32,418 nucleotides of DNA from Holophagaceae bacterium (GTDB lineage Bacteria; Acidobacteriota; Holophagae; Holophagales; Holophagaceae): positions 1 to 32,418 of the forward strand of contig WRHW01000024.1 in assembly GCA_009783055.1 (NCBI GenBank), written 5' to 3'. Within the stretch, counting starts at the first letter, position 1, and every line of letters starts with the position of its first letter. The notes beneath the pieces were generated by a model. It had not been told where the DNA came from, ran no database searches, and saw nothing but the letters and a program-made list of their open reading frames with translations. Of the stretch, positions 12,265 through 31,485 are shown in pieces. The translations under genes and the position numbers were made by a program.

Positions 12265-12273
12265 TTTTCCACC

Positions 12274-13299: not shown

Positions 13300-13301
13300 A
13301 T

Positions 13302-15002: not shown

Positions 15003-15123
15003 TAAATTCTTCCTTAGGAAATATGAAAAATTGCATCCATGGCGAACTAAGATAATACCAGAGCAGATTTCAGAACGGGAATTATTTCCAACACTGCAAA
15101 TCGGCTCAAGGAATACTGATTAT

Positions 15124-16923
15124 ATGTTGAAAACTGAAAGTTCATCGTATTTTCAAAGCGACCAGGTGGATCAGAAACCGCTGCGCCACGTTTTGATTCT
15201 TCGGTTACTAAAATATTTAAGACCATATCTGTGGCATCTGCTCATACTTCTTGTTCTGATGGGAAGCGGGGCGGTACTGGAGGTCATGCCTTCTGAATTT
15301 ACCAGGAGGCTGATTGATCATCATTTAGCTCAAGGGAGTATAAGAGGGGCGGGACAATTACTCACTGCTTTTATTTGCTTTGTTTGCTTGTCTTTTTTGG
15401 TTCAGCTTTCCAGATCAATCCTGCTGGGATGGGTGGGGCAAAAAGCTATGTTGGATTTGCGGTTACAGCTTTTTGGGCACTTAATGCGCCGGTCAACGTC
15501 TTTTTTTCAGCACAATCCGGTTGGCCGCCTGATGACGAGAGTGACAACGGATGTCCAGAATTTAAATGAAATGTTCAGCTCAGGTTTTGTAGCGGTTATA
15601 GGAGATGCGCTATCACTGGTGGCGATAGTGGTTTGGATGTACCTAATGCACCCAGGCATGGCAACAATCGCGGTATTTATAGTGCCGTTTCTTTTTGTTG
15701 CAACAGAAATCTTCAGGCGAAAAGCTGGGGAGGCATTTCGTGAAACCCAGGGGCGATATGCAGCTATCCAGGCCTATCTTCAAGAACACCTCTCCAACAT
15801 GAGCCTTGTCCAGCTAAACACAAATGAAAATAAGAGCCGAGGCGACTTTGAAAGACTCAATCTTCGATATTTAGAAGCGTTTCTGAGGTCAGTGCTGGCT
15901 TATTCTGTTTTTTTTCCTGTCGTTGAGTTCCTGACATCTGTGACCCTTGCAGCTATCATTCTTTATGCGGGTTACAAGGTTGAAATTGGTGCCGTGACTT
16001 TGGGATTGTTATTGGCGTTTGTACAGCAATCAGGTCGCTTCTTCCGACCGATAAGGGAACTGGCCGAGCGTTATAATGTGATGCAAACTGCAATGGCTTC
16101 AAGTGAGCGGATTTTTGCATTGCTCGACAATGATGATGAAATAATGGAAATGACCAATGCTAAATGTCCCGTTTTTGAAAAAGAAATACGCTTCGAGGGT
16201 ATATCTTTTGCCTATGAGGCTGGTGGTCGCCATGCTGTTAAGAACATGGACGGCGAGATACCAAAGGGCAGGAGAATCGCCGTAGTCGGGCACACGGGAG
16301 CAGGTAAGAGTACGATGATTAATCTGCTAATGCGTTTTTATGATCCACATGAAGGGAATGTTCTTTTGGATGGTATTAACATCAAGGAACTAAATTTATC
16401 GAAATATAGGGGACTGTTTGGCTTGGTTCTTCAGGACGTTTTTATTTTCAGTGGAACTCTGGAAGATAACATTTTGCTCGGTAGGCCCAAAGACTCTAGC
16501 CGTTTAGCCTATGTTTTGGAACAAAGCCAGCTGAGTTCGATTTTGGAAAGGCTTCCCCAAGGTATAAAAACTCAGGTTGGTGAGCGCGGTCAGCGCTTAT
16601 CAGCGGGGGAGCGTCAATTATTGGCTTTTGCCAGAATGTTGTACGGCTTCCCTGCAATTTTGTTGCTGGATGAAGCAACTTCAAACATCGACAGCGAAAC
16701 AGAGCAGCGCATACAAGAAGTTTTCGCCAAAGTAAGTCGAGATTTTACTACATTTACAATTGCCCATCGTCTTTCAACTATTCGAGATGCCGATGAAATT
16801 TGGGTTATGGATAAAGGGGCAGTTGTCGAGCGCGGGAATCATTATGAATTGCTAAATAGGGGTGGTATCTACTCAAATTTAGTCAGGCTTCAATTTGAAA
16901 ATAACCAATCAGAAACTGAGTGA
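15124..16923 (+). CDS. ABC exporter, fused membrane and ATPase domains (MsbA/MdlB-like)
   Basis: This 599-residue half-transporter would act as a homodimer or heterodimer in the inner membrane. Six membrane segments fall within about 35-285. The ATPase domain follows: Walker A GHTGAGKST (389-397), Q-loop Gln437 (VLQD), signature LSAGERQ (492-498), Walker B ILLLDEAT (512-519) and H-loop His548 (IAHRLST). The substrate may be lipid, peptide or drug and cannot be told from sequence. An in-frame ATG at 14971 would add 51 residues, but that stretch overlaps the signal-peptide codons of the divergent peptidase and looks unlike a transporter, so ATG 15124 (AAGGA 11 bases upstream) is preferred. It is followed 119 bases later by the V4R gene. 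Confidence 0.92.
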   Translation: MLKTESSSYFQSDQVDQKPLRHVLILRLLKYLRPYLWHLLILLVLMGSGAVLEVMPSEFTRRLIDHHLAQGSIRGAGQLLTAFICFVCLSFLVQLSRSILLGWVGQKAMLDLRLQLFGHLMRRSTSFFQHNPVGRLMTRVTTDVQNLNEMFSSGFVAVIGDALSLVAIVVWMYLMHPGMATIAVFIVPFLFVATEIFRRKAGEAFRETQGRYAAIQAYLQEHLSNMSLVQLNTNENKSRGDFERLNLRYLEAFLRSVLAYSVFFPVVEFLTSVTLAAIILYAGYKVEIGAVTLGLLLAFVQQSGRFFRPIRELAERYNVMQTAMASSERIFALLDNDDEIMEMTNAKCPVFEKEIRFEGISFAYEAGGRHAVKNMDGEIPKGRRIAVVGHTGAGKSTMINLLMRFYDPHEGNVLLDGINIKELNLSKYRGLFGLVLQDVFIFSGTLEDNILLGRPKDSSRLAYVLEQSQLSSILERLPQGIKTQVGERGQRLSAGERQLLAFARMLYGFPAILLLDEATSNIDSETEQRIQEVFAKVSRDFTTFTIAHRLSTIRDADEIWVMDKGAVVERGNHYELLNRGGIYSNLVRLQFENNQSETE

Positions 16924-17042
16924 AGGAACCGTATGTCGGGCCAGGCGAATTGTTTAGGTATGACAAATCATTTTTTCAAAAAAATACTAACGAATGATAA
17001 GTATTTGCTACTATCATACAATTTTGAGCGGAAAGGATATTT

Positions 17043-17561
17043 ATGCAGGATCGAAAATACAAATTTTCCTGGGATCTTTTGGGTGACATCGGTCTTGGTA
17101 GACCAAATTTGGGTCCAACAACCCGGATCGAGGTGTATCGCCTGATGCAAGGCACTTTCAGAGATATTCTGGAGCAGAATTTCGGAACTGAAAAAGCCGA
17201 TGAAATATTCTACGACAGTGGAAAATTGGCGGGACAGTGTTTTTATCAGAACGTGCTTGGCGACATCAATGACTTTGAACATCTTATCAAGGTACTGCAG
17301 GATAGCCTTCTTTCTATGGGTATCGGAGTTCTCCGTGTTGAAGAATCTGATTTGGAAAAGGGATCTTTTGTTTTTACTGTTTCAGAAGACCTCGATTGTT
17401 CGGGACTTCCTGAATTGGACTACGAAATTTGCACCTACGATGAAGGCTTTATCGCAGGCCTGCTTGAGTGCTTTACAGGCAAAGGCTTTGAGGTTAAAGA
17501 GGTTGACTGTTGGTGTACAGGTGATAGAACTTGCAGATTCGAGGCAAATATTTCTGCATAA
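17043..17561 (+). CDS. V4R-domain protein (small-molecule/metal sensor candidate)
   Basis: This 172-residue protein is essentially one V4R (4-vinyl reductase) domain. LGPTTRIEVYRLMQGTFRDI (23-42) opens the domain, then FYDSGKLAGQCF (56-67). The C-terminal signature is VDCWCTGDRTCRFE (154-167) with Cys156, Cys158 and Cys164; further cysteines are at 119 and 130. V4R domains are found in XylR/DmpR-type regulators and in bacteriochlorophyll 4-vinyl reductase, and are thought to bind hydrophobic small molecules or metal. There is no output domain in the chain, but 17 bases downstream a HAMP-GGDEF gene begins, so the pair probably forms a split sensor-output system. AAGGA precedes ATG 17043. Confidence 0.82.
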   Translation: MQDRKYKFSWDLLGDIGLGRPNLGPTTRIEVYRLMQGTFRDILEQNFGTEKADEIFYDSGKLAGQCFYQNVLGDINDFEHLIKVLQDSLLSMGIGVLRVEESDLEKGSFVFTVSEDLDCSGLPELDYEICTYDEGFIAGLLECFTGKGFEVKEVDCWCTGDRTCRFEANISA

Positions 17562-17578
17562 TTGGTGGAATAATTTAA

Positions 17579-18634
17579 TTGACTGACTATAGCTTTAGAG
17601 AGTCATTGTTTAATGAAATAGATAGGCTGAGACTCGCTTTAGAAAAAAGCAGTATTGAAGAATTACAGGATTGCCTCCACCAGATCATGGCTACTTGCCT
17701 GAGAATAGTCGAGGGTTCATCTGTCCTTGGAACTTTCCTTAAGCCGATTCACGATTTATTGCTCGTGGAACATATACCTGAAAACCTTCCGCCAATTGTT
17801 TTACTTGATAAAAAGTACAACAAGCTATTTGAAGATGTCAAACAGTTTCGAAGTTTTATGCTCTCCATGGCGAATGGGGATTTGTCACAAAGGCTGCTAG
17901 TGAAAGGGTATATGGCGGGCGTATTGAAAACATTTCACGCCAACCTGAAGCACCTGACGTGGCAAACAAAAATGGTGTCAAGAGGCGATTTTACTCAGCG
18001 CGTTCATTTTATGGGCGAATTTGCATCCAGTTTTAACACTATGGTCGAACAGCTTGATAACACCCGAAGAGGTCTTATTGAAAGTGAAAAAAAATATCGT
18101 TTACTTGCAATCACCGACACGTTGACAGGCCTACCTAACAGACACCATTTTTTTGAAGTAGCCATAGCAGAACACACTCGTTCCAGGCGCTACAAAAAAA
18201 CCTTTTCAATTATCATGTTAGATATAGACTATTTTAAAAAGGTCAATGATACGTACGGCCATTTTGTAGGCGATCTGGTCTTGCAGGCGGTAGCAGAGCA
18301 ACTACAAAAATCACTCAGAGAAACTGATTTTCCTGGTCGCTATGGGGGCGAAGAATTTATCGCACTGCTGCCTGAAACATCTATTGCTGAAGCCCAACTA
18401 GTTGCTGAAAGAATTAGACACAATATCCAGGACAAGGACTTAATTTTTGACGATCGACAAATTAAAGTTACTGCCAGTCTGGGAATTTATAATTTTGGTA
18501 GTTTTGATGAAGCAGATGATGTTGCAGGGCAGTCCATAGATGAAATAATCGACAAAGCAGACAAAGCACTTTACTCTGCCAAAAACAAGGGGCGAAACAG
18601 AGTTGAGACTTATTCGGGTGGTATAAGCACATAG
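17579..18634 (+). CDS. soluble HAMP-GGDEF diguanylate cyclase
   Basis: This 351-residue protein has no membrane segment or signal peptide. An N-terminal helical region (1-85) is followed by one or two HAMP-like units (about 90-160; MANGDLSQRL and VSRGDFTQRV are repeated phrases), a linker helix, and a GGDEF domain (175-345). The catalytic loop is GGEEF (256-260). The inhibitory site RETD (247-250) has the canonical RxxD spacing, so product inhibition by c-di-GMP is likely. NRHHFF, DIDYFKKVND and YGH motifs are intact, so it should be active. It starts with TTG 17579, with GGTGGA upstream, 17 bases after the V4R gene, implying a common transcript and joint function. Confidence 0.9.
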   Translation: MTDYSFRESLFNEIDRLRLALEKSSIEELQDCLHQIMATCLRIVEGSSVLGTFLKPIHDLLLVEHIPENLPPIVLLDKKYNKLFEDVKQFRSFMLSMANGDLSQRLLVKGYMAGVLKTFHANLKHLTWQTKMVSRGDFTQRVHFMGEFASSFNTMVEQLDNTRRGLIESEKKYRLLAITDTLTGLPNRHHFFEVAIAEHTRSRRYKKTFSIIMLDIDYFKKVNDTYGHFVGDLVLQAVAEQLQKSLRETDFPGRYGGEEFIALLPETSIAEAQLVAERIRHNIQDKDLIFDDRQIKVTASLGIYNFGSFDEADDVAGQSIDEIIDKADKALYSAKNKGRNRVETYSGGIST

Positions 18635-18662
18635 CAGTTCAGCTACAAAAAGTTGAACTGCT
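18633..18662. terminator. bidirectional terminator-like hairpin
   Basis: AGCAGTTCA (18633-18641) pairs perfectly with TGAACTGCT (18654-18662) over a 12-base loop. The arm begins inside the TAG stop of the cyclase gene and lies between convergent genes. No T tract follows on either strand, so termination would need a factor or the hairpin may protect the 3' end. Confidence 0.6.
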
Positions 18663-18683
18663 TGAATATGAGGGTCGTTTCAG

Positions 18684-20120
18684 CTAATAACCCTTGGTCT
18701 GCATACAATCTTTTGCGGCTTTGTATCCACGGTCGAAGGCTTGCTCGTTGAGAGGCATCAGGGATGCCTTGTCCTTCAGTGCCTGTTTGATTGTGGCCAG
18801 GAATGTTTCACGAGGAAAAATGTTTGTTGCAGCTGCAAGTGCCCCCAGGCTTACGATATTTTTGACAACCATCTTTCCCAGGTCGGCGGCAATTTCTGCG
18901 AAAGGTACGCCAATTACCTTGATACTGGAATCGGCTGGTTCAAATTCCTTGGCTACGGAATTATCGAATAAGATGAACCCGTTATTTGTCACGCTCGATC
19001 CAAATTTTGCAAGGCTTGGAGCGTTGTAGGCAATAAGAATGTGCGGGAGAGGACTGGCAGGGTTAAGTACCTCCGTCTTTGCAATATGTACGTCCGCATA
19101 AGATGTGCCACCACGGCTTTCGGGGCCATATGCTGGGATGTGCGTCCCGTCAAACCCTTCATTAATTCCTGCGGTAGTTACCAAGATGGCTGCAGTTTGG
19201 GCACCATCGCCTCCTGACCCAGCGAGTTTAAGACTTATGTCAGCCGGATGTATGTGGGATGGGAACTCCTTACAAAAACGTTCTGTCTTTTCTGTTGTCC
19301 CGCCAATTAGTCCCAATATTTTTTCACTATCAAATATCGGCTCCTTTATGTCCCACCATGGCTCCACGTCCACGTCCTTTTTGACACCCAGTGGGAAAAT
19401 TGGCACCATGTTTTCTTTTACCCATTTTTCCGATTTGTCGGGGGTTATTTTTAAGTGGGTCGGACACTCAGCAAGAACTTCAACAAAAGCGTAGCCGCGC
19501 CCTTCTTTTTGAAGCTGGAGAGCCTTTTTGATTGCTTTTCTGGCTTTGTTCCTCTCAGCTGGGCTAAAAAGTGCAACTCGCTCTACATAAATCGGCCCAT
19601 CCAGTTGTGCGATTTGTTCTGCCATTTTGATTGGCTGGCCATTGATTTGTTTTCTACCATCCGGGCTGGTAGAAGTAGTCTGCCCCATTAGGGTAGTTGG
19701 TGCCATTTGGCCACCAGTCATTCCGTATATAGCGTTGTTAATGAAAATCACTGTTAGGGGACTACCAAGCTGGGCAACAGCGATAGTTTCAGCAAGGCCA
19801 ATAGAAGCCAGGTCTCCATCGCCCTGATAGCTAATTACCATGGCCTTGGGATTTGCTAACTTGTGGCCAATGGCAACCGCCGGAGCGCGCCCGTGCGCGG
19901 CTTGAGTATTGCCTGTATCAAAGTAATAGTACGCAAAAACAGAACAACCAACAGGACTGACCATAACAGTATCATCCTGTATACCGAGTTCTGAAATCGC
20001 CTCTGACAGGTATTTGTGTACTATTCCATGGCCACATCCGGCACAATAGTGGGTACTATGTCCTTTGAGGCCAACGCCATTTGAGTGTCGTTCGAATTTG
20101 TTGTAGAAGGCTGTTGACAT
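18684..20120 (-). CDS. 2-oxoacid:ferredoxin oxidoreductase, beta-gamma fusion
   Basis: This 478-residue protein fuses two subunits. Residues 1 to about 285 are the thiamine-diphosphate-binding beta subunit: YCAGCGHG (25-32), YQGDGDLASIGLAE (98-111, Mg/TPP motif) and FINNAIYGMTGGQ (126-138). From about 293 to 475 lies the gamma subunit: GSGGDGAQTAA (301-311), YGPESRGGTSYADV and a long Rossmann-like tail. With the upstream delta-alpha gene it makes a full KOR/VOR-type enzyme that decarboxylates a 2-oxoacid with CoA and reduces ferredoxin. Branched-chain (VOR) or 2-oxoglutarate (KOR) specificity cannot be settled by eye. GGAG precedes ATG 20120; the gap to the upstream gene is 12 bases. Confidence 0.92.
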   Translation of the reverse strand: MSTAFYNKFERHSNGVGLKGHSTHYCAGCGHGIVHKYLSEAISELGIQDDTVMVSPVGCSVFAYYYFDTGNTQAAHGRAPAVAIGHKLANPKAMVISYQGDGDLASIGLAETIAVAQLGSPLTVIFINNAIYGMTGGQMAPTTLMGQTTSTSPDGRKQINGQPIKMAEQIAQLDGPIYVERVALFSPAERNKARKAIKKALQLQKEGRGYAFVEVLAECPTHLKITPDKSEKWVKENMVPIFPLGVKKDVDVEPWWDIKEPIFDSEKILGLIGGTTEKTERFCKEFPSHIHPADISLKLAGSGGDGAQTAAILVTTAGINEGFDGTHIPAYGPESRGGTSYADVHIAKTEVLNPASPLPHILIAYNAPSLAKFGSSVTNNGFILFDNSVAKEFEPADSSIKVIGVPFAEIAADLGKMVVKNIVSLGALAAATNIFPRETFLATIKQALKDKASLMPLNEQAFDRGYKAAKDCMQTKGY

Positions 20121-20132
20121 TTGAAATTCTCC

Positions 20133-21521
20133 TCACTTTGCGATGGACTTAACGTAGGCTACAACATCCGCCTGCTGAGGCAAGTTGCCACCCATTCGCC
20201 GGATATGCCTTATTTCTGGGAGCTTTTCAACGCCGGCTTTATTGAGTTCAAGCCGAAGCTCGTCTTCCAGTTGGCCAGCACTAGCTTCTACAACTACTAT
20301 TTGCTTTGTCTTGGGTAGTAATGTTTTTAACTGCTCGACCGGGAAGGGCCAAACTGTTATGGGTCTGAACAGACCCGCCTTTACACCTGCTTCTCTCAGA
20401 TTCTGAACAGCACCCTTGGAGATTCGTGCTGGAGTATTACAGGCTACGAGCAGTATCTCGGCATCATCTGTCATAAAATTATCTGCTCTGGCATGTGCTT
20501 TCATTGTGGCGTATTTGGCACAAATTTTTTCATTTCGCCTTTCAAGATCTGGTTCGGCCAAATCAATCGAGTTAATCAAATTACCTCTGTGTGCCCTGTC
20601 ACCATAAACGGCCCATTCGGGTATTCCAGGTTTATTAAGGTGGGTTGGCAGATTTACCTTTCCAGTCATTTGTCCCAAATATCCATCCAGAAGAATGATT
20701 ACAGGGTTTCGATACTTGAATGCCAGTTCAAAAGCCTCAATAGTCAGGTCAAGTACTTCCTGCGGGGTGCTTGGAGTCAGACAAATTGCGTGTGTATTTC
20801 CATGCCCGAGGCCACGACAGGCAAACTTGATATCGGACTGCTCAGGAGCAATATTTCCCAGACCTGGCCCGCCGCGCATTACATTTACGATGACAGACGG
20901 GAGTTCGGCACCAACCATGTAGCTTATGCCCTCAACCATTAGTGAAAAACCAGGACTAGAAGTGAAGGTCATAGTTGGGAGCCCTGCTCCTGCAGTTCCA
21001 TACATGTGGTTGATTGTGGCAACTTCAGAAACCGCCTGTAAATACCATCCATTCATCTTTGGAAGGAACTTAGCCATGAGTTCTGCACCCTCAGTAGAAG
21101 GGGTGATTGGATATCCGTACATGTGGCGGCATCCAGCAATCATGGCCCCAATTGCGGCGGCATAATTGCCTTTGATCACCATGGGCTCAGTTTTTGGCAT
21201 TGGGATTTCTTGGTTTGCGATTGCTATAGGCTTTATCGCATCGTTTTTCTTGTCGAGAAATAGTTTTGCGGGGTTCTTCGAGTCAACCGTCTCGCCACTT
21301 TCGACTGCCAATAGGCTAAATGGTTCTGGGCATGCGTCAATGCAGAGTCCACATGAATTACATTTTTCAAGATCAAGTTTCACTGGAGCAATGCCCGTCT
21401 GATGGTTTATCTCTTCACTGAAGGTAATGCAACCTTTTGTGCAAACACCTACGCAGCGACCGCATCCTTTACAATATTCCGGAACCAGATATGGTTTTGG
21501 GCGTTCCGCCTTCTGTGCCAT
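20133..21521 (-). CDS. 2-oxoacid:ferredoxin oxidoreductase, delta-alpha fusion (VorB/KorA-like)
   Basis: This 462-residue protein starts with a 2[4Fe-4S] ferredoxin domain (delta): Cys17, 20, 23 and 27, and Cys54, 57, 60 and 64. It continues as the pyrimidine-binding alpha subunit from about 115: AAAIGAMIAGCRHMYGYPITPSTE begins at 121, with AVSEVATINHMYGTAGAG and MTFTSSPG later. The alpha C-terminal domain ends with the VVVEASAGQLEDELR helix. Electrons would pass from TPP through the two clusters to a soluble ferredoxin. GGAG lies 9 bases before ATG 21521. A terminator-like hairpin with a T tract sits in the leader. Fusion of delta to alpha is known in some anaerobes; having both halves fused is less usual. 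Confidence 0.92.
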   Translation of the reverse strand: MAQKAERPKPYLVPEYCKGCGRCVGVCTKGCITFSEEINHQTGIAPVKLDLEKCNSCGLCIDACPEPFSLLAVESGETVDSKNPAKLFLDKKNDAIKPIAIANQEIPMPKTEPMVIKGNYAAAIGAMIAGCRHMYGYPITPSTEGAELMAKFLPKMNGWYLQAVSEVATINHMYGTAGAGLPTMTFTSSPGFSLMVEGISYMVGAELPSVIVNVMRGGPGLGNIAPEQSDIKFACRGLGHGNTHAICLTPSTPQEVLDLTIEAFELAFKYRNPVIILLDGYLGQMTGKVNLPTHLNKPGIPEWAVYGDRAHRGNLINSIDLAEPDLERRNEKICAKYATMKAHARADNFMTDDAEILLVACNTPARISKGAVQNLREAGVKAGLFRPITVWPFPVEQLKTLLPKTKQIVVVEASAGQLEDELRLELNKAGVEKLPEIRHIRRMGGNLPQQADVVAYVKSIAK

Positions 21522-21530
21522 AGGTACTCC

Positions 21531-21553
21531 AAAAAAAGGTTACAAAACAACCT
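21531..21553 (-). terminator. attenuator-like hairpin in the leader of the oxidoreductase operon
   Basis: Read on the minus strand, AGGTT (21549-21553) pairs with AACCT (21537-21541) over a 7-base loop, then six to seven T (21531-21537) run into the GGAG ribosome-binding site. The stem is only 5 bp, so it would be a weak terminator or simply a spacer. Confidence 0.35.
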
Positions 21554-21848
21554 GACAATACAACTTGCCAGATATTCCACACTATTATCATGTGAGTATC
21601 GGCCCCCGTATCTGTGCAAGGGGTCACAACGATGCACCATGGGGTTGTTTCGCTGGTGTTTTCCAAACCAATGCAACCGAATGACACATAATTTTACACT
21701 GAAATTGTGGTAGTATTGGTAATTAGCTTTTGCAAGAGTGGGCGATTGGATAGAATTTTTGGAGACACAGCAATTTGGTACCTTACATGACTTTGTCTTG
21801 TGTGGACAAAATAGCGGAAGAAATGAGTTAGGAGTAGATTGATTGGGC

Positions 21849-21854
21849 TATAAT
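21849..21854 (+). promoter_or_regulatory. possible -10 box upstream of cheR
   Basis: TATAAT matches the sigma-70 -10 consensus exactly, but no good -35 hexamer is found at 15-18 bases upstream, so it may need an activator. A transcript from here would carry a leader of roughly 170 bases. Confidence 0.35.
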
Positions 21855-21866
21855 AGCAATGAGGGA

Positions 21867-21914
21867 GTGACAGGTGCTGAGAGTTGAAAAAAACTGCTGG
21901 AAGGATTGTGTCAC
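21867..21914 (+). promoter_or_regulatory. inverted-repeat element in the cheR leader
   Basis: GTGACA (21867-21872) and TGTCAC (21909-21914) can pair and enclose a smaller AGTT/AACT stem with a GAAAAA loop at about 21883-21896. The nested shape could be a regulatory RNA leader or a protein-binding dyad. It matches no riboswitch family I recognise. Confidence 0.35.
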
Positions 21915-22029
21915 AAGAGGTATTTGGTACGGGATTAGCAATACCACTTCCAGTGGTTGAAAGGAGCATGGCAATTTGGTATTCTCGTTAGTGGCAGGTA
22001 AGAAGATGTTACGATACCGGGTGGGGTAA

Positions 22030-22887
22030 ATGATCGGGTCTGGTTCCAGTGTGCAAATGAGTTCCCAGGATTTTGTGGCCTTGAGAGATTTTGTATATAA
22101 CCGATCAGGTATTTACTTTCGCGAGACGAAGAAATATTTCCTTGAAACCCGTGTGAGTAGAAGAATTTCTGAACTTTCGTTGGCATCTTATGGGGAATAT
22201 TTGAAACTCCTTCAGGGGAAATTGGGGATTGACGAGCTTAAGTACCTGTTCAATGAAGTTACAACAAATGAAACCAGCTTTTGGAGGAATCCGCCGCAGA
22301 TAGAGGCTTTTCAAAAGCTGGTACTTCCCGAGGTCGCTGCGATTGCCAAAAAGAGAGGTGGCAATAGGTTTCGCCTTTGGTCTGCAGCTTGTTCATCAGG
22401 AGAAGAGCCGTATACGTTGGCGATGGTATGTGCAGAGGCAAAAGATTCGGTATTGCGCGGTATGACAATTGAGATTATTGCCACCGATATTAGTGAACGG
22501 GTTCTCAATCTTGCAACAATTGGTCAATATGGCAGCTATACGCTGCGAAATTTGACTCCTGCCAGACTCCAACTCCATTTTGATCAAAAGGGTGACGACA
22601 TCTTTGAGGTCAAGCCTGAATTAAAAAAAATGGTCACGTTCAAAAATTTCAACCTGGTTGATTATCAGAATTATCGGACGTTGGGGATGTTCGATGTGAT
22701 ATTTTGCCGGAATGTTTTGATTTACTTTGATGATGCCGTTAAGGGAAAAGTCATCAATGGATTTTACGAGCAGCTTTTTCCAAAAACCTATCTGATGGTA
22801 GGGCACAGCGAATCAATAAGTGCATACGCATCTGGATTTGAGCTTGTCCACTTCAGCATGGCCACTGGCTACAGAAAGAATGGGTAG
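22030..22887 (+). CDS. cheR: CheR-type chemoreceptor glutamate methyltransferase
   Basis: This 285-residue cytoplasmic S-adenosylmethionine-dependent enzyme methylates glutamates on chemoreceptors or related targets. The N-terminal helical domain (10-75) is followed by TNETSFWRNP (79-88). The SAM-binding LWSAACSSGEEPYTLAM is at 116-132, with ATDIS (151-155) and FCRNVLIYFD (225-234), then GHSES (258-262). All landmarks are intact and there is no fused TPR. GGTGGGG precedes ATG 22030. It opens a plus-strand cluster with two HDOD genes, cheB and a FliK-like gene; no methyl-accepting protein or cheA is in the window. Confidence 0.93.
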   Translation: MIGSGSSVQMSSQDFVALRDFVYNRSGIYFRETKKYFLETRVSRRISELSLASYGEYLKLLQGKLGIDELKYLFNEVTTNETSFWRNPPQIEAFQKLVLPEVAAIAKKRGGNRFRLWSAACSSGEEPYTLAMVCAEAKDSVLRGMTIEIIATDISERVLNLATIGQYGSYTLRNLTPARLQLHFDQKGDDIFEVKPELKKMVTFKNFNLVDYQNYRTLGMFDVIFCRNVLIYFDDAVKGKVINGFYEQLFPKTYLMVGHSESISAYASGFELVHFSMATGYRKNG

Positions 22888-22909
22888 CCAAATGTCTATG
22901 TGTATTTGG
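22888..22909 (+). promoter_or_regulatory. short hairpin before the first HDOD gene
   Basis: CCAAAT (22888-22893) and ATTTGG (22904-22909) form a 6-bp stem directly after the cheR stop. The 3' arm reaches into the GGGGA that serves as ribosome-binding site of the next gene (ATG 22922), so it might dampen translation. The stem is AT-rich and weak. Confidence 0.3.
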
Positions 22910-22921
22910 GGATAATGAACT

Positions 22922-23776
22922 ATGCAACAGATTGATGCAAAAAAGCTAGTTGAAAATTTGGGGAACCTCCCTCCGATCCCCCACATTGCCACTCAGGTCT
23001 TAAGGTTGACTTCAGACATGGACTGTTCTTTGAGTGAACTTCAGCAAGCGATCGCGTCTGACCAGGCACTTGCTGCTCAGATGCTCAAGATCGCTAATTC
23101 TGCGATGTTCGGTTCAATGAGAGCCATTAGGACTTTGCCCCAGGCTATCATGACCCTGGGACTCAATTCTGTTAAAAGTGCAGTAATAGCATCCATATCA
23201 AAAGACTTTTATATGAAAAGCTCGATGGGGTTTTACAAGACGGTTATTTGGGAACATTCTCTTGTTTCTGCCCTGGCTGGAAGCTCGCTGGCAAAAGTCT
23301 TCCGATTTCCAGCGCATGATGAAGTGTTTCTGGGTAGTTTGTTGCATGACATCGGTAAATCTGTTCTGGATCTCAAGTTTCCTGGAAAGTATGAAAAAAT
23401 TGCCAATTCATGCTATTGCGGCGAAACGGTCGATGTACTAAAAGCTGAAGTCGATGCGTTTGGTTTTGATCACGCTATGGTTGGCGGTGCATTGCTGGAA
23501 TCCTGGAATCTTCCCACTACCGTTACTCAAAGTGTTCGGTGGCATCACAGTCCTGGCAATGCCGATGCAGAAAGTATTGTGTTGGCTGCATACGTTTCCT
23601 TGGGGAATATTTTCGCGCTTGAGATGGGGAAGGGCCTGAAAACGCCCACCAAATTTGATGATGCTAAAAATGAGGCATTAGAGCGGGCAGGCATTTCTAA
23701 AGAGGCTTATGCTTCTCAGACAGACGTGGTTTTTGAGTGTATTGAGCAGGACAAAGCTTTCGTTACGGGGTTTTAA
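22922..23776 (+). CDS. HDOD-domain protein (first of two)
   Basis: This 284-residue protein is almost entirely an HDOD domain, starting at LPPIPHIATQVLRL (16-29) with the characteristic SDQALAAQMLKIANSAMFG (46-64). HD-type metal residues appear retained: His112, LLHDIGK (140-146, His142 and Asp143), His184 and His208/209. Many HDOD proteins have lost these and act only as scaffolds, so activity is possible but unproven; phosphodiesterase function should not be assumed. HDOD proteins take part in signalling, motility and virulence regulation. It lies 34 bases after cheR and 5 bases before the second HDOD gene. GGGGA lies 10 bases upstream of ATG 22922. Confidence 0.9.
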   Translation: MQQIDAKKLVENLGNLPPIPHIATQVLRLTSDMDCSLSELQQAIASDQALAAQMLKIANSAMFGSMRAIRTLPQAIMTLGLNSVKSAVIASISKDFYMKSSMGFYKTVIWEHSLVSALAGSSLAKVFRFPAHDEVFLGSLLHDIGKSVLDLKFPGKYEKIANSCYCGETVDVLKAEVDAFGFDHAMVGGALLESWNLPTTVTQSVRWHHSPGNADAESIVLAAYVSLGNIFALEMGKGLKTPTKFDDAKNEALERAGISKEAYASQTDVVFECIEQDKAFVTGF

Positions 23777-23781
23777 TAAAA

Positions 23782-24639
23782 ATGATTACGCTTGATCTCA
23801 TCCGGCAGCGTGTGAATGGGCTACCAAGCCTTCCTGCCTCTGTGTTCGCCTTGGGCGAAATAGCGATGGATGAGCGTAGTACTTTGGATGATGTTTACAG
23901 GATTCTGGTAAAAGACCCGGCCTTGGCTTCCTGTATTTTGAGGCTGGCGAATTCTTCTCTTCTGGCAGCTGACAATTTCGCGTCTGACTTGCGAACAGCT
24001 ATTCAAAGGCTGGGCATGGATGCGATCGTAAATCTGAGCAGAGGGGTCGCTGTTATTCGCAACTATAAGGCTAGTGAATCGCTGGATGTGGTTCATCTTT
24101 GGCAACATTCGACCGCCGTCGGCTTGATTGCTAAGGCTGTTTGCGGGTATCTCAAGAGCTTTGCAGTTGCTGAAACTGCGTTTTTGGCTGGTTTGCTGCA
24201 TGACATAGGAAAGATTGTTTTGGACAGGTGTTTCCACGAGGAGTATGCTCCGGTTCTGAATGCTATTAAAACTGGCGAGGAAGAATTGGAAGCTGAAAGG
24301 AAGTATCTCAACACTACACACGTAGAAGTCGGAGCCCAGGTAGCCGTTCAGTGGAAATTCCATGACAGCATTACTGAGGTAATCCGAGACCATCACGATC
24401 CAAAACCTGGAGCTTTTTTACCAAACATAATCCATTACTGTGATTTGTTGGTTAGAACAAGGCTTCCCAATGGTTTATTAGATGAAAAACTGGTTTTGAA
24501 CTTGAGTGCTGACAATAACCTAAAGGGAATGATTTCCAGTATTTCAGGGAGCATTCCAGACTTAGAGTACCTTACATTCAGAATTGATGATGAAGTTGAA
24601 AACGCAATAGCTTTTGTACAGCAAGCTTTTCAGGACTAA
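23782..24639 (+). CDS. HDOD-domain protein (second of two)
   Basis: This 285-residue HDOD protein is parallel to its upstream neighbour but clearly diverged: LPSLPASVFALGEIAM (14-29), KDPALASCILRLANSSLL (44-61), GLLHDIGKIVLDR (137-149). Candidate metal residues are His109, His140, Asp141, His180 and His204/205, again retained. The two genes are probably an old tandem duplication. GGGG lies 11 bases before ATG 23782. Its TAA stop shares a base with a possible ATG of cheB (24639), so translation is likely coupled. The function is inferred only from family and position: a signalling scaffold or hydrolase acting with CheB/CheR. Confidence 0.9.
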   Translation: MITLDLIRQRVNGLPSLPASVFALGEIAMDERSTLDDVYRILVKDPALASCILRLANSSLLAADNFASDLRTAIQRLGMDAIVNLSRGVAVIRNYKASESLDVVHLWQHSTAVGLIAKAVCGYLKSFAVAETAFLAGLLHDIGKIVLDRCFHEEYAPVLNAIKTGEEELEAERKYLNTTHVEVGAQVAVQWKFHDSITEVIRDHHDPKPGAFLPNIIHYCDLLVRTRLPNGLLDEKLVLNLSADNNLKGMISSISGSIPDLEYLTFRIDDEVENAIAFVQQAFQD

Positions 24640-24644
24640 TGATT

Positions 24645-25769
24645 ATGGCTGAACCTATTCGAGTGATGATAGTTGACGATAGCTCATTCATGAGAAAGTC
24701 TTTGGAGCGAATGCTGATGTCTGAAGACATTCATGTAGTGGGTACTGCCAGGGATGGTTTAGATGCTTTGGAAAAAATTCCGATTTTAAAACCAGACATT
24801 TTGACCCTCGATATTGAAATGCCCAAAATGGATGGGCTTACGTGCCTTAAGAAGATAATGGCCGAGTTCCCCATGCCTGTATTGATGGTGTCAAGCCTGA
24901 CTCACGAAGGGGCAAAGGCTACTCTGGACGCGCTTGCATTAGGAGCCTTGGACTTTATTCCAAAAGAAAAAAAGCTAGATGGGACTGATGGTGATGCATT
25001 AAGTTTCCAAAACGATTTACTGGAAAAAGTAAAAAGATTGGCCCATAGTCCCAAATTCAAGACCCATCGACACCTTCAACCGTATGCTGGTCAAGCTCCA
25101 CCGCGAGTAGGCATCCCACATCCGATCAAAACACCATCAGCTCCTGTCATGGCTGTTTCTCCGAAATCAGGAGCCACTACGTTACCTGCCCAACCCAGGG
25201 CAGAAATTATTGTGCTCGGCTGCTCCACGGGGGGACCAAAAGCACTGCAGGATTTTTTGCCCTACTTGCCGAAAAACCTGCCTGTGCCGTTGCTCATCGT
25301 CCAGCATATGCCTTCCTCTTTCACCAGGCCCTTTGCCGAAAGACTGAATGGCATCTGTCAGCTTGAGGTTAAGGAAGCATCAAACGGAGATATCCCTCAA
25401 CCAGGGCATATCTACATAGCTCCCGGGGGTATTCACATGCATGTCCGTAGTCAATTGGGTCATTATGTGATCGAATTGAACCCGGAACCTTCCTCAACTT
25501 TACACCGGCCCAGTGTTGATGTGCTTTTCCAAAGTGCATTCGACGCATGTAATTCCCAAATATTGGCTATTATTCTTACAGGGATGGGTGCTGATGGAGC
25601 GCAGGGGATGAAGAAATTAAAGTCAAAAGGGGCTTACACCCTTGCTGAAGCAGAGTCGAGTTGTGTGGTTTACGGAATGCCAAAAGCGGCGGTTGAATTG
25701 GGGTGTGTTGATATTGTTGCCCCGATTCAGGAAATGGCGGGTATTCTCAAGCATCATTTCCAGTTATAG
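24645..25769 (+). CDS. cheB: CheB-type receptor methylesterase response regulator
   Basis: The receiver domain runs from RVMIVDDSSFMR (phospho-acceptor Asp in LTLDIEMPKMDG, residue 58 counted from ATG 24639) to DFIPKEKK. The esterase domain shows the Ser-His-Asp triad: Ser196 (LGCSTGG), His223 (IVQHMP) and Asp319 (GMGADG), same numbering. The linker (about 112-186) is long and proline-rich compared with E. coli CheB. I prefer ATG 24645 (374 residues; AGGA nine bases upstream), although ATG 24639 overlapping the previous stop is also possible. The protein removes methyl groups from, or deamidates, chemoreceptors, opposing CheR. The cheR and cheB genes bracket two HDOD genes. Confidence 0.94.
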   Translation: MAEPIRVMIVDDSSFMRKSLERMLMSEDIHVVGTARDGLDALEKIPILKPDILTLDIEMPKMDGLTCLKKIMAEFPMPVLMVSSLTHEGAKATLDALALGALDFIPKEKKLDGTDGDALSFQNDLLEKVKRLAHSPKFKTHRHLQPYAGQAPPRVGIPHPIKTPSAPVMAVSPKSGATTLPAQPRAEIIVLGCSTGGPKALQDFLPYLPKNLPVPLLIVQHMPSSFTRPFAERLNGICQLEVKEASNGDIPQPGHIYIAPGGIHMHVRSQLGHYVIELNPEPSSTLHRPSVDVLFQSAFDACNSQILAIILTGMGADGAQGMKKLKSKGAYTLAEAESSCVVYGMPKAAVELGCVDIVAPIQEMAGILKHHFQL

Positions 25770-25789: not shown

Positions 25790-28609
25790 ATGGTTGGAGT
25801 CGCCCCAGTTTGGTCGAATACCGGTACTTCGCACATAGTGTCAGCCTCTCCTGCGAGTTTAGGCTACGATAGGGTTCTGCCATCGGTTGGACAGACCATT
25901 TCTGTTTTGTTAGTAAAAAATGGAACCGAAGGTGTGAAATTACAGCTCCCTTCCGGCCAAACTATTGCGGCACAGGGGAGCATTCCTTTCCCCGAGATGA
26001 CACAGCTTCAAGTTAAGGTATCCATTCAGGATGGTATTATCCGTCTCCAAATTCTTGAAGCCACGCCTCCCTCTCCAGCTTCAATTCTTGGACCCTTGAT
26101 ACGAGGTGAGGCAAATATATTGATCCAACAGCTACAGGCTTCAAAAATGCCAGAAACCTTGGCTCCGCTTGCGAGACTCTTTTCTTCGCTTGTGCTACCA
26201 AGCGAGTTGCAGATTCAGCAAGCTATAGATGCGCTTCCGGTTTCCACCCGGTATTTGTTGTCGAGGCTCATTGGTCTAAAGGACAATGCTCCAATCAACA
26301 TCGTGCAGAGCCTTATTGAACACTTTGAGCCTATAGCATCGTTATTTGAAGGTGAATTGTTAGATGCAGAAAAACAAGTTGCTAGTAATGTAGCATTACT
26401 AGGTAATGAACAAAAAGCAGTGCCATTAGCAGAAACATTGATAAAGGATTTGGCATATGCACTGGCCAAGTTGTTTGATTCCAGTTCACCATTGCTTGAA
26501 AAAAACCTTAATCAGATATCCAATTTGAAAGATATGTTCAGATCTGAATTTTTATCTATATTAGGACGGGCAATAAACGAGGCAAATAGAGAACCATTTG
26601 AAAAAAATATTTTAATGGATATTTTTGGAAAAATACAAATAGCCTTAAAACAACTACCGGAAGATTTACGAAATAATGTGTCAAAACTATTTGTTGGAAG
26701 TGTTGTTGAAGATACAAATGTAATAGCCAAAGCAATATTTGGAGAGTTTGGTGTTGACGGCAATAATCTAGCTAAAGGATTTGGAAAGGATTTTTTTCAA
26801 GAAGCAAACAATAAATTCGCTAGCACGAAATTGTTGCAAATACTTGAAAATATGCCAATTTCCATTAAAAAAGAAATTGCATTTGCCCTATCAGGTTCTC
26901 AAGGAGCTAAACCTGGAGATATAGCTGAGTTGTTGATCAATAAAATAAATGGCTCGAATATTGGTGTCGATTTTAGTCCAAAACTTGAGTTGACATCGCC
27001 TTCAATACGACAAATAATCACCATAATGCTAGAAGTGGCTCGACCAATAATTAACAGGCATTTCTCAGATTTGTCTAGCACTGCCGGGGATGGATCATTA
27101 GTAGTCAATGAAAGAATGGTCTCGCAAAAATTGACCCAGGTAATTGAAAATATGCCAATTTCTATCAGAAAAGACACAGCGGCTGTTGTTTTGGGCAACT
27201 CTGAGGCTGGGGCTAAAGATATTTCAGAAAATATTTACCATAGAGCTGTTGGCTCAGCTAGTTCAAATATCGAAAAGGGTGTTTTTCAGAATACTCAGCC
27301 CGAAATACGTCAAATAATAACGCTGTTGCATGAATTGGCAATGTCGTTTCAGCTAGAGGGCGATCGTCTCCTGGGAGTTACCGCAGAAGTCAATAATGGA
27401 GGCCAGATTACTGCTTCAGATTTTCAAAAAGTGGTGCAGGCAATTGAAAATTTACCAGCTTCCATCAGGAGAGCTATTGCTTTGGCCATTTTCAACTCTC
27501 CAGAAACAAAGCCAATTGATATAGCAACCTTTATTATTAATCAAGGTGCCAATGCCAATATTGATAAAAATCTGGTTTCCTTGCTGGAATCGACTCCACC
27601 CTTGGTGCGTCAATTGGTTACTGTTATTTCACAGTTGCCTATTGGATCAACTCCGCAGCAGATCGCGGAATCAGTGTTAAATGGTGAGCGAGGCATTTTT
27701 CTAGCAGCAAAGGGTATTCTTTCAGTGGATGCAGGTGTTGAGAAGTCAAACCTATCTGATCTAAGCGGATTGGGTTCTGTTTTGAATAATGATGATGCGA
27801 GCAGGAATAATTCAACCGAATCAACATCAGGGTTGAGTAATAGTAATATTAATGAAAAATTGTTGTCGATTACATTTGCTGACAGAATTAGCTATCTGCT
27901 TCGATTTGAGCATTTTAATTCTCAACAAACGTTCTCTATGGGAGAAAAAAACGATATTTCGTCATGGTTTCGTAGCATTGTGGATCAGCTCATACTAACA
28001 AAATCAACTAAAATGCAATATCAAGAAGTTGCAGATTCCTTTAAGCAAAACAGAGAATCTCTCAGAATTGATAGAAATACAAATTCAATTGTTGGGCAAG
28101 CTGCTAATAAAACGATTGAGCCTCCCCTTGATAAGCCGCAGACGTGGCAAGCGTGGCTTAAGGGCAGTATGAAGGCACTTGTGGACCAATCAATATCCCC
28201 CAAGGATGCACTTTTTCATACAATTGTAGCCAGAGAAGGCGTAAATTATTTTCAATTGCCCTTGCCGTGGTTGTCTAATCGTTCAATGGAAATGTGGATT
28301 GAAGAGGAAGAGGCTAACGAAGCTGAAAATAAAAATCCCAGCACTTTTCGTATGCTTTTGGCGGTGAATTTTTCTATTCTTGGCGAAACCAGGATTGGTA
28401 TGGAATCATCTGGCAAAAGGCTTGCGGTCAAAATTTGGACGGAGTCTCCACATCTTATTGAGAAAGAACTGCCAAATTTGCAAAGTGGAATCGCTGCTCT
28501 TGGATTCGATGTTCATGCCTCGATACAAACACTTGGTTCAGACAAAGAAGGCGTTATACCATCAATCAAATCAATAATTATGGGGTCTAGTCTGCATGCG
28601 ATGGGGTAA
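25790..28609 (+). CDS. large FliK-like protein with tandem 100-residue repeats
   Basis: This 939-residue protein has no signal peptide. The C-terminus (about 785-915) resembles the FliK C-terminal (Flg_hook) domain: YFQLPLPWL (820-828), LAVNFSILGETRIGMESSGK (857-876) and LPNLQSGIAALGFDV (894-908). The N-terminus (30-95) looks like a small beta domain (GTEGVKLQLPSGQTIAA). Between them lie three consecutive units beginning at residues 348, 448 and 548 (for example LTQVIENMPISIRK), each closed by a (S/P)xxRQIIT phrase at about 404, 504 and 604. Two weaker copies start near 142 and 282. The middle is AT-rich. If it is FliK it would control flagellar hook or rod length, but no flagellar genes are present in the window, so another ruler or scaffold role is possible. 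GGGG lies about 10 bases before ATG 25790. Confidence 0.8.
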   Translation: MVGVAPVWSNTGTSHIVSASPASLGYDRVLPSVGQTISVLLVKNGTEGVKLQLPSGQTIAAQGSIPFPEMTQLQVKVSIQDGIIRLQILEATPPSPASILGPLIRGEANILIQQLQASKMPETLAPLARLFSSLVLPSELQIQQAIDALPVSTRYLLSRLIGLKDNAPINIVQSLIEHFEPIASLFEGELLDAEKQVASNVALLGNEQKAVPLAETLIKDLAYALAKLFDSSSPLLEKNLNQISNLKDMFRSEFLSILGRAINEANREPFEKNILMDIFGKIQIALKQLPEDLRNNVSKLFVGSVVEDTNVIAKAIFGEFGVDGNNLAKGFGKDFFQEANNKFASTKLLQILENMPISIKKEIAFALSGSQGAKPGDIAELLINKINGSNIGVDFSPKLELTSPSIRQIITIMLEVARPIINRHFSDLSSTAGDGSLVVNERMVSQKLTQVIENMPISIRKDTAAVVLGNSEAGAKDISENIYHRAVGSASSNIEKGVFQNTQPEIRQIITLLHELAMSFQLEGDRLLGVTAEVNNGGQITASDFQKVVQAIENLPASIRRAIALAIFNSPETKPIDIATFIINQGANANIDKNLVSLLESTPPLVRQLVTVISQLPIGSTPQQIAESVLNGERGIFLAAKGILSVDAGVEKSNLSDLSGLGSVLNNDDASRNNSTESTSGLSNSNINEKLLSITFADRISYLLRFEHFNSQQTFSMGEKNDISSWFRSIVDQLILTKSTKMQYQEVADSFKQNRESLRIDRNTNSIVGQAANKTIEPPLDKPQTWQAWLKGSMKALVDQSISPKDALFHTIVAREGVNYFQLPLPWLSNRSMEMWIEEEEANEAENKNPSTFRMLLAVNFSILGETRIGMESSGKRLAVKIWTESPHLIEKELPNLQSGIAALGFDVHASIQTLGSDKEGVIPSIKSIIMGSSLHAMG
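26831..27730 (+). repeat. three in-frame 300-base tandem repeats inside the FliK-like gene
   Basis: Units start at 26831, 27131 and 27431, exactly 300 bases apart. Each opens with a sequence coding (L/V)xQxxENxPxSI(R/K)(K/R), followed by a stretch with the pattern KPxDIAxxI, and contains an RQ(I/L)(I/V)T phrase about 57 residues in. The first 20 or so bases after each ENMP codon are partly identical at the DNA level between units one and two. The third unit's tail diverges after about residue 620. Confidence 0.8.
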
Positions 28610-29540: not shown

Positions 29541-31454
29541 TTAATAGGCAGGGTCCAGGCGTACGTTTATTATTGTGTCACCTGCGATTTTGACCTTGGA
29601 GCTTTTAAGACTGAAATCCAAAAGATAGGCAATTGCATAATCAGAGTCGCCGATTAAAACTATTCTTTTTGGATCGGGAGAAGACGAGTCGAAAAGATAG
29701 GAAGAAAGCACATTTCCGTCGATCCTGACCTCGATGGATGCTCCAGTTGGAAGAGGGGGATCTGGAATAACTGATAATCGGTAAGCCACGTCTTTGCTGA
29801 GACGTATTTTTGCAGAAAAATTTTCTTTGTAAGTTAAGTTTGAAAAATTCCCCTCGGCATCTGCGACAGAGTCAGACATGCTGAGGGTAAAGCTGGGCAA
29901 GGCATCAGTGGCTGAATTGGGGTCTAGGCCCCAGTCCGTAATGAAGTTGCTGAGAGGGCCTTCGATAGGCCTTGGCCATATTTCGCCAAAAAACGGAGTT
30001 GCCATCTGGGTTATGACATTATCTGTAAATATTTCGGTCAAATCAACCGAGTCCAAAGAACCTGATATCTCGGACAAACGCTTTAATTGGGTGAATAGAC
30101 TTGGCAGGTCAGTAATTTCCGAATACTCAGATTCTTCGTCGTAATAAATTTCGGATTGTAATGAATAAAAATGGGGAATTGAATTCGGTTCAATCTTTTC
30201 CCAGGTATCCGGTTCACCAGGTGCAGTTATGCTATTCGCTTTCAGCGCCACCTCCCAAGTAAAAGCTGTGATTGCAGGACTGGAATATATATCTTGGGGC
30301 AGCTCAGTAATTTTGCGAATATCCTTGACCGCAGTCCCAGACCCTGAAGTAAGGAACGGAGTTTTTAAGACAATTGCAGCAATGGCATCTGGAAGCCCCT
30401 CTGCCATCGCCATTGTAGGTTGAAGGCTGGAGATGATTGACTGATTTCTGCCATCGCTGATATCAGAATATTTTTTGGGAGGAAACTGAAAACGTCCTGG
30501 AATTTGCGTGCCTCTCATCGAGTTTCTTGCCATCATCGAAAGCAGGGTACCTTGATCCCAGGCATCGTCGTTTTCTGCGCCTGGGCCGCCTCTTACGCTG
30601 CCAAAAAAGTGCAAAACACCCCCACCTGTAGAACTAGACGGTTCGTAAGCCAGTGGGAATCTTGCCCTATCATATTCAACATAGGTGCCAAAAGGTTCTG
30701 TGATATTTTGCCGATAGTGAAGGTCGAGCGTTGCACCTGGTGTTGGATTGCCAATTAGCGTTGATGCAGTGTAGAGTGTGTCAATGATTGCCGCAACTTT
30801 ACTACCAGTTCCATAAAATTCAAGCTGTGCCGACTGAGCATGTTGTTCGGATGGGTGGGTGATCCACCAGCCGTCATCCAGGCCGATTTCAATATCCAGT
30901 TCAACTTTGCCTTCCACGGTGGCTGCAGGCATTGGATTGTCAAACGGTGCAGAACCATCAATCCCTTTCCGCATCGAGTAAATGACCCTGTCAGCTTGGG
31001 GGATTTGGCTGTTGATGCCATCCGGGTCTGCGATAATGCGGACTAAATAGCCGTAGTTGTTAAACACGCTTTGAACTTCGACATAAGCTGGAATCGTGTC
31101 ATCATCGGGTAAAGAGGCGGTGTATTCGCCTTCAGAATTTGTGTAATCCCAATCATAAACGTACCAAACCTCGACTTTTGAGTCATCAGGCATGGTCTCT
31201 TCCTTAGAGCAGACCACACGGACATAAGCACCACGCAGCGGCAGTATTTCGGCGTTGTCCTGTGAATCCAGGCCGAGTGGATATCCATTGTTGTCTACTT
31301 TTATCGGCAACCGTGTATAGGTTATTGTTCCGGTTACTGTTCTGGCAGCAGAATCATCTGTCTGATTTCTGCCGCCACCGCAGCCCAGAACAAAAAAGCC
31401 TACAAAGACAGTAATAAGAATATTAAGGGTTTTTCTGAATTCTGTGAAAACCAT
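29541..31454 (-). CDS. large lipoprotein of unknown function with a beta-sandwich N-terminal domain
   Basis: This 637-residue protein starts at ATG 31454 with GAGG just upstream; a TTG at 31469 is possible. The signal peptide ends in a good lipobox, FVLGC (Cys25), so it is probably membrane-anchored. Residues about 38-135 look like a carboxypeptidase-regulatory/Ig-like beta sandwich (VTGTITYTRLP, then NSEGEYTASLP). The centre is rich in Pro, Ser, Asp and Glu with no recognised motif. The last 110 residues form another strand-rich domain with ENFSAKIRLSKDVAYRLSV, reminiscent of pre-peptidase-type C-terminal domains. No catalytic site is seen. Its partner and role are unknown. Confidence 0.75.
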   Translation of the reverse strand: MVFTEFRKTLNILITVFVGFFVLGCGGGRNQTDDSAARTVTGTITYTRLPIKVDNNGYPLGLDSQDNAEILPLRGAYVRVVCSKEETMPDDSKVEVWYVYDWDYTNSEGEYTASLPDDDTIPAYVEVQSVFNNYGYLVRIIADPDGINSQIPQADRVIYSMRKGIDGSAPFDNPMPAATVEGKVELDIEIGLDDGWWITHPSEQHAQSAQLEFYGTGSKVAAIIDTLYTASTLIGNPTPGATLDLHYRQNITEPFGTYVEYDRARFPLAYEPSSSTGGGVLHFFGSVRGGPGAENDDAWDQGTLLSMMARNSMRGTQIPGRFQFPPKKYSDISDGRNQSIISSLQPTMAMAEGLPDAIAAIVLKTPFLTSGSGTAVKDIRKITELPQDIYSSPAITAFTWEVALKANSITAPGEPDTWEKIEPNSIPHFYSLQSEIYYDEESEYSEITDLPSLFTQLKRLSEISGSLDSVDLTEIFTDNVITQMATPFFGEIWPRPIEGPLSNFITDWGLDPNSATDALPSFTLSMSDSVADAEGNFSNLTYKENFSAKIRLSKDVAYRLSVIPDPPLPTGASIEVRIDGNVLSSYLFDSSSPDPKRIVLIGDSDYAIAYLLDFSLKSSKVKIAGDTIINVRLDPAY

Positions 31455-31485
31455 CCCTACCTCATACAATTAGGACACAAAGCCT

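Follow-up and report, generated by a model that had tools for sequence, protein, structure and literature searches.

An additional FliK-type protein with repeated, probably helical modules, encoded behind a chemotaxis gene block in Holophagaceae

Contig WRHW01000024.1 of a flagellated Holophagaceae bacterium (Acidobacteriota; assembly GCA_009783055.1), analyzed here over its full 32,418 nucleotides and referred to as the window, carries a gene for a FliK-related protein, which we call FliK2 (gene fliK2), a name that we extend to its orthologues. It is the second protein of the FliK type in this bacterium; its middle part consists of helical modules that have undergone duplication, and its gene lies behind a chemotaxis gene block. 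Its C-terminal domain resembles those of the FliK superfamily, its gene closes a conserved block, it co-occurs with flagellar genes, and in three distant genomes it lies next to flhX, the gene for an orphan FlhB C-terminal domain. The reading that we favor, with confidence a little better than even, is that FliK2, as an accessory factor acting with FlhX or FlhB, helps the flagellar secretion apparatus to switch its export specificity, and that the modules form a variable spacer rather than a counted ruler.

Results

The C-terminal domain belongs with the FliK superfamily. Flg_hook (PF02120) was matched in the window protein at residues 844-912 (E 5.6e-5, 23.3 bits) and in five relatives. The homologue of G248 clearly exceeded the Pfam cut-off (39.6 bits), those from the related genomes G001 and G100 exceeded it in a six-frame search (30.9 and 30.3 bits), and that of G150 lay far below it (14.4 bits). 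A profile of the FliK2 C-domain aligned with the C-termini of 15 canonical FliK proteins of the family at P 9.7e-5 over 63 columns. When residues 770-939 were modeled (predicted local distance difference test [pLDDT] score, 73.6), the SS domain of PscP (PDB 5cuk) ranked first among PDB chains (Foldseek E 7.7e-3, probability 1.00) and was the sole VIA match with a Z of at least 5 (5.9, 76 of 94 residues). PscP is a YscP-type ruler of an injectisome, and SS stands for substrate-specificity switch. The comparison with this injectisome protein covers the SS domain; at the sequence level, the C-domain profile gave chance-level matches only against the sequences of solved structures (best E 0.43) and none to PscP. 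The fold match, together with the family and profile matches, supports homology of the C-terminal domain to the Flg_hook/T3S4 domains.

A canonical hook FliK would be expected in the hook gene cluster and as the only FliK of its genome, and the window protein has neither property. The same genome bin (G000) encodes a canonical FliK on contig C44, next to flgD and flgE, whereas the window gene follows cheB. Thus, a preliminary description of the protein as FliK-like holds for the superfamily; the window FliK2 is not the hook FliK, and it stays below the Pfam cut-off.

At the other end of the protein, a small beta domain (residues 33-92) was matched by a hidden Markov model (HMM) built from five proteins in all 19 of the 19 Holophagaceae FliK2 proteins that have the N-terminal part. 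Its model resembled PDB chains at Z values of up to 6.2 over 58 residues, under the tool's clear level; many of these chains are presumably oligonucleotide/oligosaccharide-binding (OB) domains, and we tentatively call the modeled domain OB-like.

Between these domains lie the repeats. The preliminary description had reported three units spaced exactly 100 residues apart, each with an ENxPxSIR opening and a later RQIIT phrase, plus two weaker copies, and had proposed that repeat number could set a ruler. The spacing was borne out by ungapped self-comparison of the protein, in which similarity was far above chance: an offset of 100 scored 201 (residues 340-516 against 440-616) and an offset of 200 scored 132, against a best of 49 among 30 shuffled proteins. 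An HMM of the strong copies, built from six segments of the relatives C4, G001, and G003 only and excluding the window's own copies, recovered residues 346-398, 446-500, and 546-595 at 55.1, 52.2, and 66.5 bits (top domain in 200 shuffles, 4.5 bits); the copies lie at residues 345, 445, and 545. The two phrases are present, but unit 1 opens with ENMPISIK and the third RQIIT phrase reads RQLVT. Pairwise identities of the 100-residue units are 33, 28, and 22 of 100, and the duplication is therefore old; the A-type modules, defined below, retain their pattern despite 22-54% identity.

The repeat unit proper is probably a three-helix module of about 45 residues. This is a judgment from models in which the copies show three helices at similar offsets with low-to-moderate confidence, the helices being merged at the first A-type copy and a module-like pattern appearing also in an unclaimed stretch from residue 594. 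The full-length model of FliK2 was poor (mean pLDDT, 50), and the N-domain, the C-domain, and, with caution, the helix pattern were used from it. There are two module types, A (starting at 345, 445, and 545) and B (with the motif LPxxxRNN), and at the profile level the two are homologous (hhalign probability 94, P 1.2e-7; the score of 35.0 compares with a maximum of 17.8 among 100 column shuffles).

The two weaker copies fared differently. The copy at 277-328, which is of type B, is real, in that residues 281-320 scored 25.7 bits, against 4.4 bits for the best of 200 shuffles, with a model that included the relatives' weak copies, although a model of strong copies only missed it (-3.0 bits). 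The one at 141-178 reached 4.6 bits, the level of the best shuffle (4.4 bits); it also matched a module from other genera (described below) with an independent E value (i-E) of 0.005 among 19 proteins and shows a three-helix pattern in the model, and its status as a module copy is doubtful. As for the RQIIT phrase, it is probably a relic of a second, B-type module, since in G001 and G003 an A module is followed by a full B module opening with LRQIITxLPxxxRNN, and at the corresponding place in the window protein and the C4 copy, judged by eye, only the RQIIT-like opening is left.

The C4 copy, at positions 4980-7721 of contig C4 of the same bin, was considered as a paralogue and rejected, because extended parts of C4 and of the window are collinear, with nucleotide identities of 68-77%; positions 9917-25769 of the window are covered by this synteny (loci L006 and L008). 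Contigs C100 (L042) and C34 (L043) of the bin likewise share long syntenic stretches at 69-76% nucleotide identity. Judging from these alignments, the bin most likely mixes two related species, segmental duplication being the less likely origin of the C4 copy, and the C4 gene was therefore treated as an orthologue. Amino acid identities between the window and C4 are 90% for CheR, 84% for CheB, 85% for the second HDOD protein (HDOD2), and 74% for the first, as opposed to 43% for FliK2, which therefore evolves fast; the window FliK2 is 36% identical to that of G001.

Neither the number nor the period of the modules is conserved among relatives. A modules start at 333, 433, and 521 in the C4 copy (spacing, 100/88) and at 428 and 553 in G001 (spacing, 125), so that within the genus, as compared with C4 and G001, exact 100/100 spacing is confined to the window protein. 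Two members of genus g7 differ as well: three modules lie about 115 residues apart in G017 and two about 99 apart in G024, and the spacers between N- and C-domain measure 430 and 266 residues, respectively. A similar module occurs one to three times, always between the N- and C-domains, in 7 of 11 FliK2 proteins from other Holophagaceae genera; the model for it was seeded by eye from nine segments of seven proteins, such that recovery in those seven is partly by construction, although the seed set did not include the second copy of either G024 or G011. In single comparisons, this module aligned with type A at P 2.8e-4 (probability 41) and with type B at P 5.1e-5 (probability 67), and the profiles point to a kinship with the window modules of moderate strength. 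The other four of these 11 proteins outside genera g1 and g3 (G006, G007, G012, and G023) gave no module at E 1e-3; the spacers of G007 and G023 appear by eye to be rich in Pro, Ala, Gln, and Thr. Spacer length, compared among complete proteins (leaving out partial ones such as that of G003, which is cut at a contig end), ranges overall from 38 to 677 residues: 38-44 in 17 of 17 genus g3 orthologues read, 164-430 in 11 others, and, in the genus of the window, 677, 653, and 663 for its three complete proteins.

Distant homologues have multiplied a different element. A beta domain is present in eight copies in G150, three in G100, and two in G248; the G150 segments were chosen by eye before a leave-one-out test, in which each copy was recovered with an E value between 2e-10 and 6e-6, compared with 0.013 for the best shuffle. 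The G150 beta-domain model did not match the window N-domain (i-E 0.85). With helical modules in Holophagaceae and beta domains in these three genomes, it follows that lineages amplified different modules in related proteins. The G150 homologue is 1,546 residues long (L115, 3579-8219, minus strand), with flhX as the next gene. Elsewhere, a 1,167-residue protein at L007 (270-3773, minus strand) appears by eye to carry several near-identical repeats of about 80 residues in its C-terminal half.

These comparisons bear on the proposal that FliK2 is a secreted ruler that determines, by its count of helical modules, how long the hook or another appendage becomes. A T3S4-like C-domain would suit such a role, as would the near-constant spacers of the genus, which persist despite 43% (C4) and 36% (G001) identity and differing modules. 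But the canonical FliK sits next to flgD and flgE, spacers shrink to 38-44 residues in g3 and take values of 164-430 elsewhere, two g7 members differ in module count and spacer length, and three unit spacings are found within one genus; since close relatives disagree in both the number and the spacing of their repeats, a repeat-counting ruler is improbable, and the suggestion made in the preliminary description is not supported. A neutral array, in which the spacer grows and shrinks by duplication and function is independent of its length and make-up, is a further reading: the spacer may consist of helical modules, of Pro/Ala/Gln/Thr-rich sequence, or of almost nothing, and the G150 lineage amplified a beta domain instead. 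Against it stand the A-type pattern, which has been kept in strongly diverged copies, and the 653-677 residues seen in each of the genus's three complete proteins. We regard neutrality as rather unlikely; it is compatible with an accessory switch. We suggest that the helical array is a loosely length-constrained, uncounted spacer between conserved domains; a true length constraint is kept as the boldest reading, because of the similar gap in the three genus members.

The genomic setting of fliK2 is constant at the loci of the family that could be read. The order cheR-HDOD-HDOD-cheB precedes fliK2 in 21 of the 21 other loci readable on that side, namely, those of 20 of the 56 other fliK2-bearing family genomes plus the C4 copy (cheR is partial in G014 and G029; the loci of G008, G019, and G028, cut by contig ends, were left out). 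Among 77 family genomes, fliK2 and FliK occur together in 55, fliK2 without FliK in 2 (G001, 69% complete, and G029, 76% complete), and FliK without fliK2 in 2 (G002 and G009), and 18 have none of fliK2, FliK, FlhB, and FlhX; all four are present in 48, and 11 have partial sets. A close orthologue of HDOD2 (49-53% identity) was found in four of four flagellated controls and in none of the 18 genomes without flagellar markers, 4 of which have other HDOD proteins at 30-33% identity; it is missing also from G009 and G002. In a profile search, 25 of 396 Acidobacteriota genomes gave matches, 24 of them within the family, and relatives in a named genome collection came from 10 loci: 8 in Holophagaceae or Holophagales bins, 1 labeled Deltaproteobacteria, and 1 labeled Acidobacteria. 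In L051 (G016, listed as a single contig) and L057 (G032), fliK2 lies in two frames and is apparently frameshifted.

The bin encodes FlhB twice and a single orphan FlhB C-domain, FlhX, at position 71738 of C4, and such an orphan domain is present in 53 of the 77 family genomes. Outside the family, FliK2 homologues came from 3 of the 38 genomes in the class of G100, namely, G100 itself, G150, and G248. In all three, flhX follows directly in the same orientation (G100's FlhX scores 68.3 bits in Pfam), and each genome encodes in addition a full FlhB and another FliK that passes the cut-off. No cheR, HDOD, or cheB match was seen at these three loci. In four genomes (L041, 9421-11469; L105; L107; and L108), flhX has as neighbors a receiver-like gene and one whose product starts with MIDLHCH and looks PHP-like by eye.

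The features of the window are listed in Table 1. NCBIfam gave no match for the five FliK2 proteins scanned, and weak mid-protein Pfam matches (DUF5891, E 0.0094, and similar ones) were judged to be due to chance. Downstream, at 29541-31469 on the minus strand, is an open reading frame (ORF) of 642 residues without a Pfam match at E 1e-5.

Table 1. Features of fliK2 and of the upstream gene block (nucleotide positions in the window)
Feature	Position	Strand	Evidence
cheR methyltransferase, opens the conserved block	22030..22887	+	Pfam CheR E 1.7e-55; synteny
HDOD-domain protein 1	22922..23776	+	Pfam HDOD E 2.4e-50; synteny
HDOD-domain protein 2	23782..24639	+	Pfam HDOD E 1.6e-46; close orthologue absent from all 18 genomes lacking flagellar markers
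cheB receiver-methylesterase, immediately upstream of fliK2	24639..25769	+	Pfam CheB E 3.1e-67; synteny
fliK2, FliK-related protein of 939 aa, ATG start, last gene of the block	25790..28609	+	Open ORF; Flg_hook match; fold match
Small beta domain at the N terminus, residues 33-92, model tentatively OB-like	25886..26065	+	HMM 69.7 bits; pLDDT ~78
Possible first module copy, residues 141-178, weak	26210..26323	+	i-E 0.005; 4.6 bits
B-type module, residues 277-328, LPxxxRNN	26618..26773	+	25.7 bits; profile homology to A-type
A-type module 1, residues 345-392	26822..26965	+	Self-comparison, HMM
RQIIT phrase 1, residues 407-411, probable B-type module relic	27008..27022	+	Self-comparison; G001/G003 comparison
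A-type module 2, residues 445-492	27122..27265	+	Self-comparison, HMM
RQIIT phrase 2, residues 507-511	27308..27322	+	Self-comparison
A-type module 3, residues 545-592	27422..27565	+	Self-comparison, HMM
RQLVT, altered third RQIIT phrase, residues 607-611	27608..27622	+	Self-comparison
C-terminal T3S4/Flg_hook-like domain, residues 770-939	28097..28606	+	Pfam, profile-profile, model fold match

Discussion

FliK2 shares with FliK the superfamily of its C-domain and a layout of N-terminal part, variable middle, and C-domain, and it differs in lying outside the hook gene cluster and in falling under the Pfam cut-off; a full-length profile of the family's FliK proteins aligned to FliK2 in the C-terminal part only, with no counterpart seen for the N-domain or the modules. 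The orphan FlhB C-terminal domain FlhX (HP1575) is said, in the title of a 2006 study by Wand and coworkers, to be a "spare part" for FlhB. The FlhX proteins seen here are likewise orphan FlhB C-domains, and their genes stand directly after fliK2 in the three distant genomes, as opposed to away from it in the six Holophagaceae genomes checked. In Salmonella, FliKC binds FlhBC in the export switch (PMC6972891). A flhX-fliK gene pair is mentioned for Nitratiruptor, a FliK gene being named there together with a flhX gene, and the passages that name the pair mention no link to chemotaxis genes (PMC9321776). Taken together, the adjacency of flhX, the binding in Salmonella, and the Nitratiruptor pair lead us to read FliK2 as an accessory switch factor working with FlhX or FlhB. 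Its C-domain would engage an FlhB-type C-terminal domain, either the orphan FlhX or FlhB itself, and in this way FliK2 may tune the timing of the change from hook-type to filament-type export. Because fliK2 stands behind the cheR-HDOD-HDOD-cheB genes and probably shares a transcript with them, completion of the flagellum may be tied to the installation of chemotaxis adaptation.

Several observations weigh against this assignment. The window protein does not reach the Pfam gathering score of 29.8 (23.3 bits; 26.7 in the six-frame search), and in whole-protein scans G001 (26.6 bits) and G100 (27.0 bits) also fall under it; Foldseek returned no PDB chain at E 0.001, and a Z of 5.9 and an E of 7.7e-3 are middling values. 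The Holophagaceae C-domain profile matches G100 only (E 4.6e-6) of the three distant homologues, and G248 and G150 are linked to the window family solely through G100. Within Holophagaceae, flhX lies apart from fliK2 in the six genomes checked, being on C4 in this bin and far off or on another contig in G001, G003, G005, G007, and G011. In G009 (genus g7, 96% complete), FliK, FlhB, and FlhX are present, and fliK2 and the close HDOD2 orthologue are missing, so fliK2 may be dispensable or may have fallen into an assembly gap. Finally, the genomes of the family are related, and the co-occurrence counts are therefore not independent and suggest more independence than there is.

The same loci could be explained if FliK2 had left export control and become a cytoplasmic partner of the chemotaxis adaptation or HDOD proteins, its T3S4 domain now serving as a binding module. 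We consider this rather unlikely. The invariable position behind cheB at the readable loci would fit such a role, as would the separation from flhX in Holophagaceae and from the hook genes in this bin, but fliK2 is missing along with the flagellar genes in 18 of 18 genomes, and the three distant loci pair the gene with flhX and show no match to the chemotaxis block. The first of these objections carries little weight, since the HDOD2 gene of the block is lost in the same 18 genomes and co-loss separates the two readings poorly. A bolder version of the accessory switch, strikes us as a long shot. In it, Acidobacteriota would possess two parallel switches, FliK-FlhB and FliK2-FlhX, the second being wired into the chemotaxis block in Holophagaceae; in the window's genus, the freely changing array would be kept at some 650-680 residues, and FliK2 would time or measure something by that length without its repeats being counted.

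In the open-licence literature we found no description of this second FliK-type protein, subscription journals being mostly outside that coverage. The finding means that a single lineage has retained both an additional FliK-type protein and an orphan FlhB domain within the same genomes. Its spacers, of about 40 to 680 residues and produced in part by module duplication, constitute a natural length series in which the need of a T3S4 protein for a measured spacer can be tested, and the place of the gene behind cheB hints that flagellar assembly and chemotaxis adaptation are connected.

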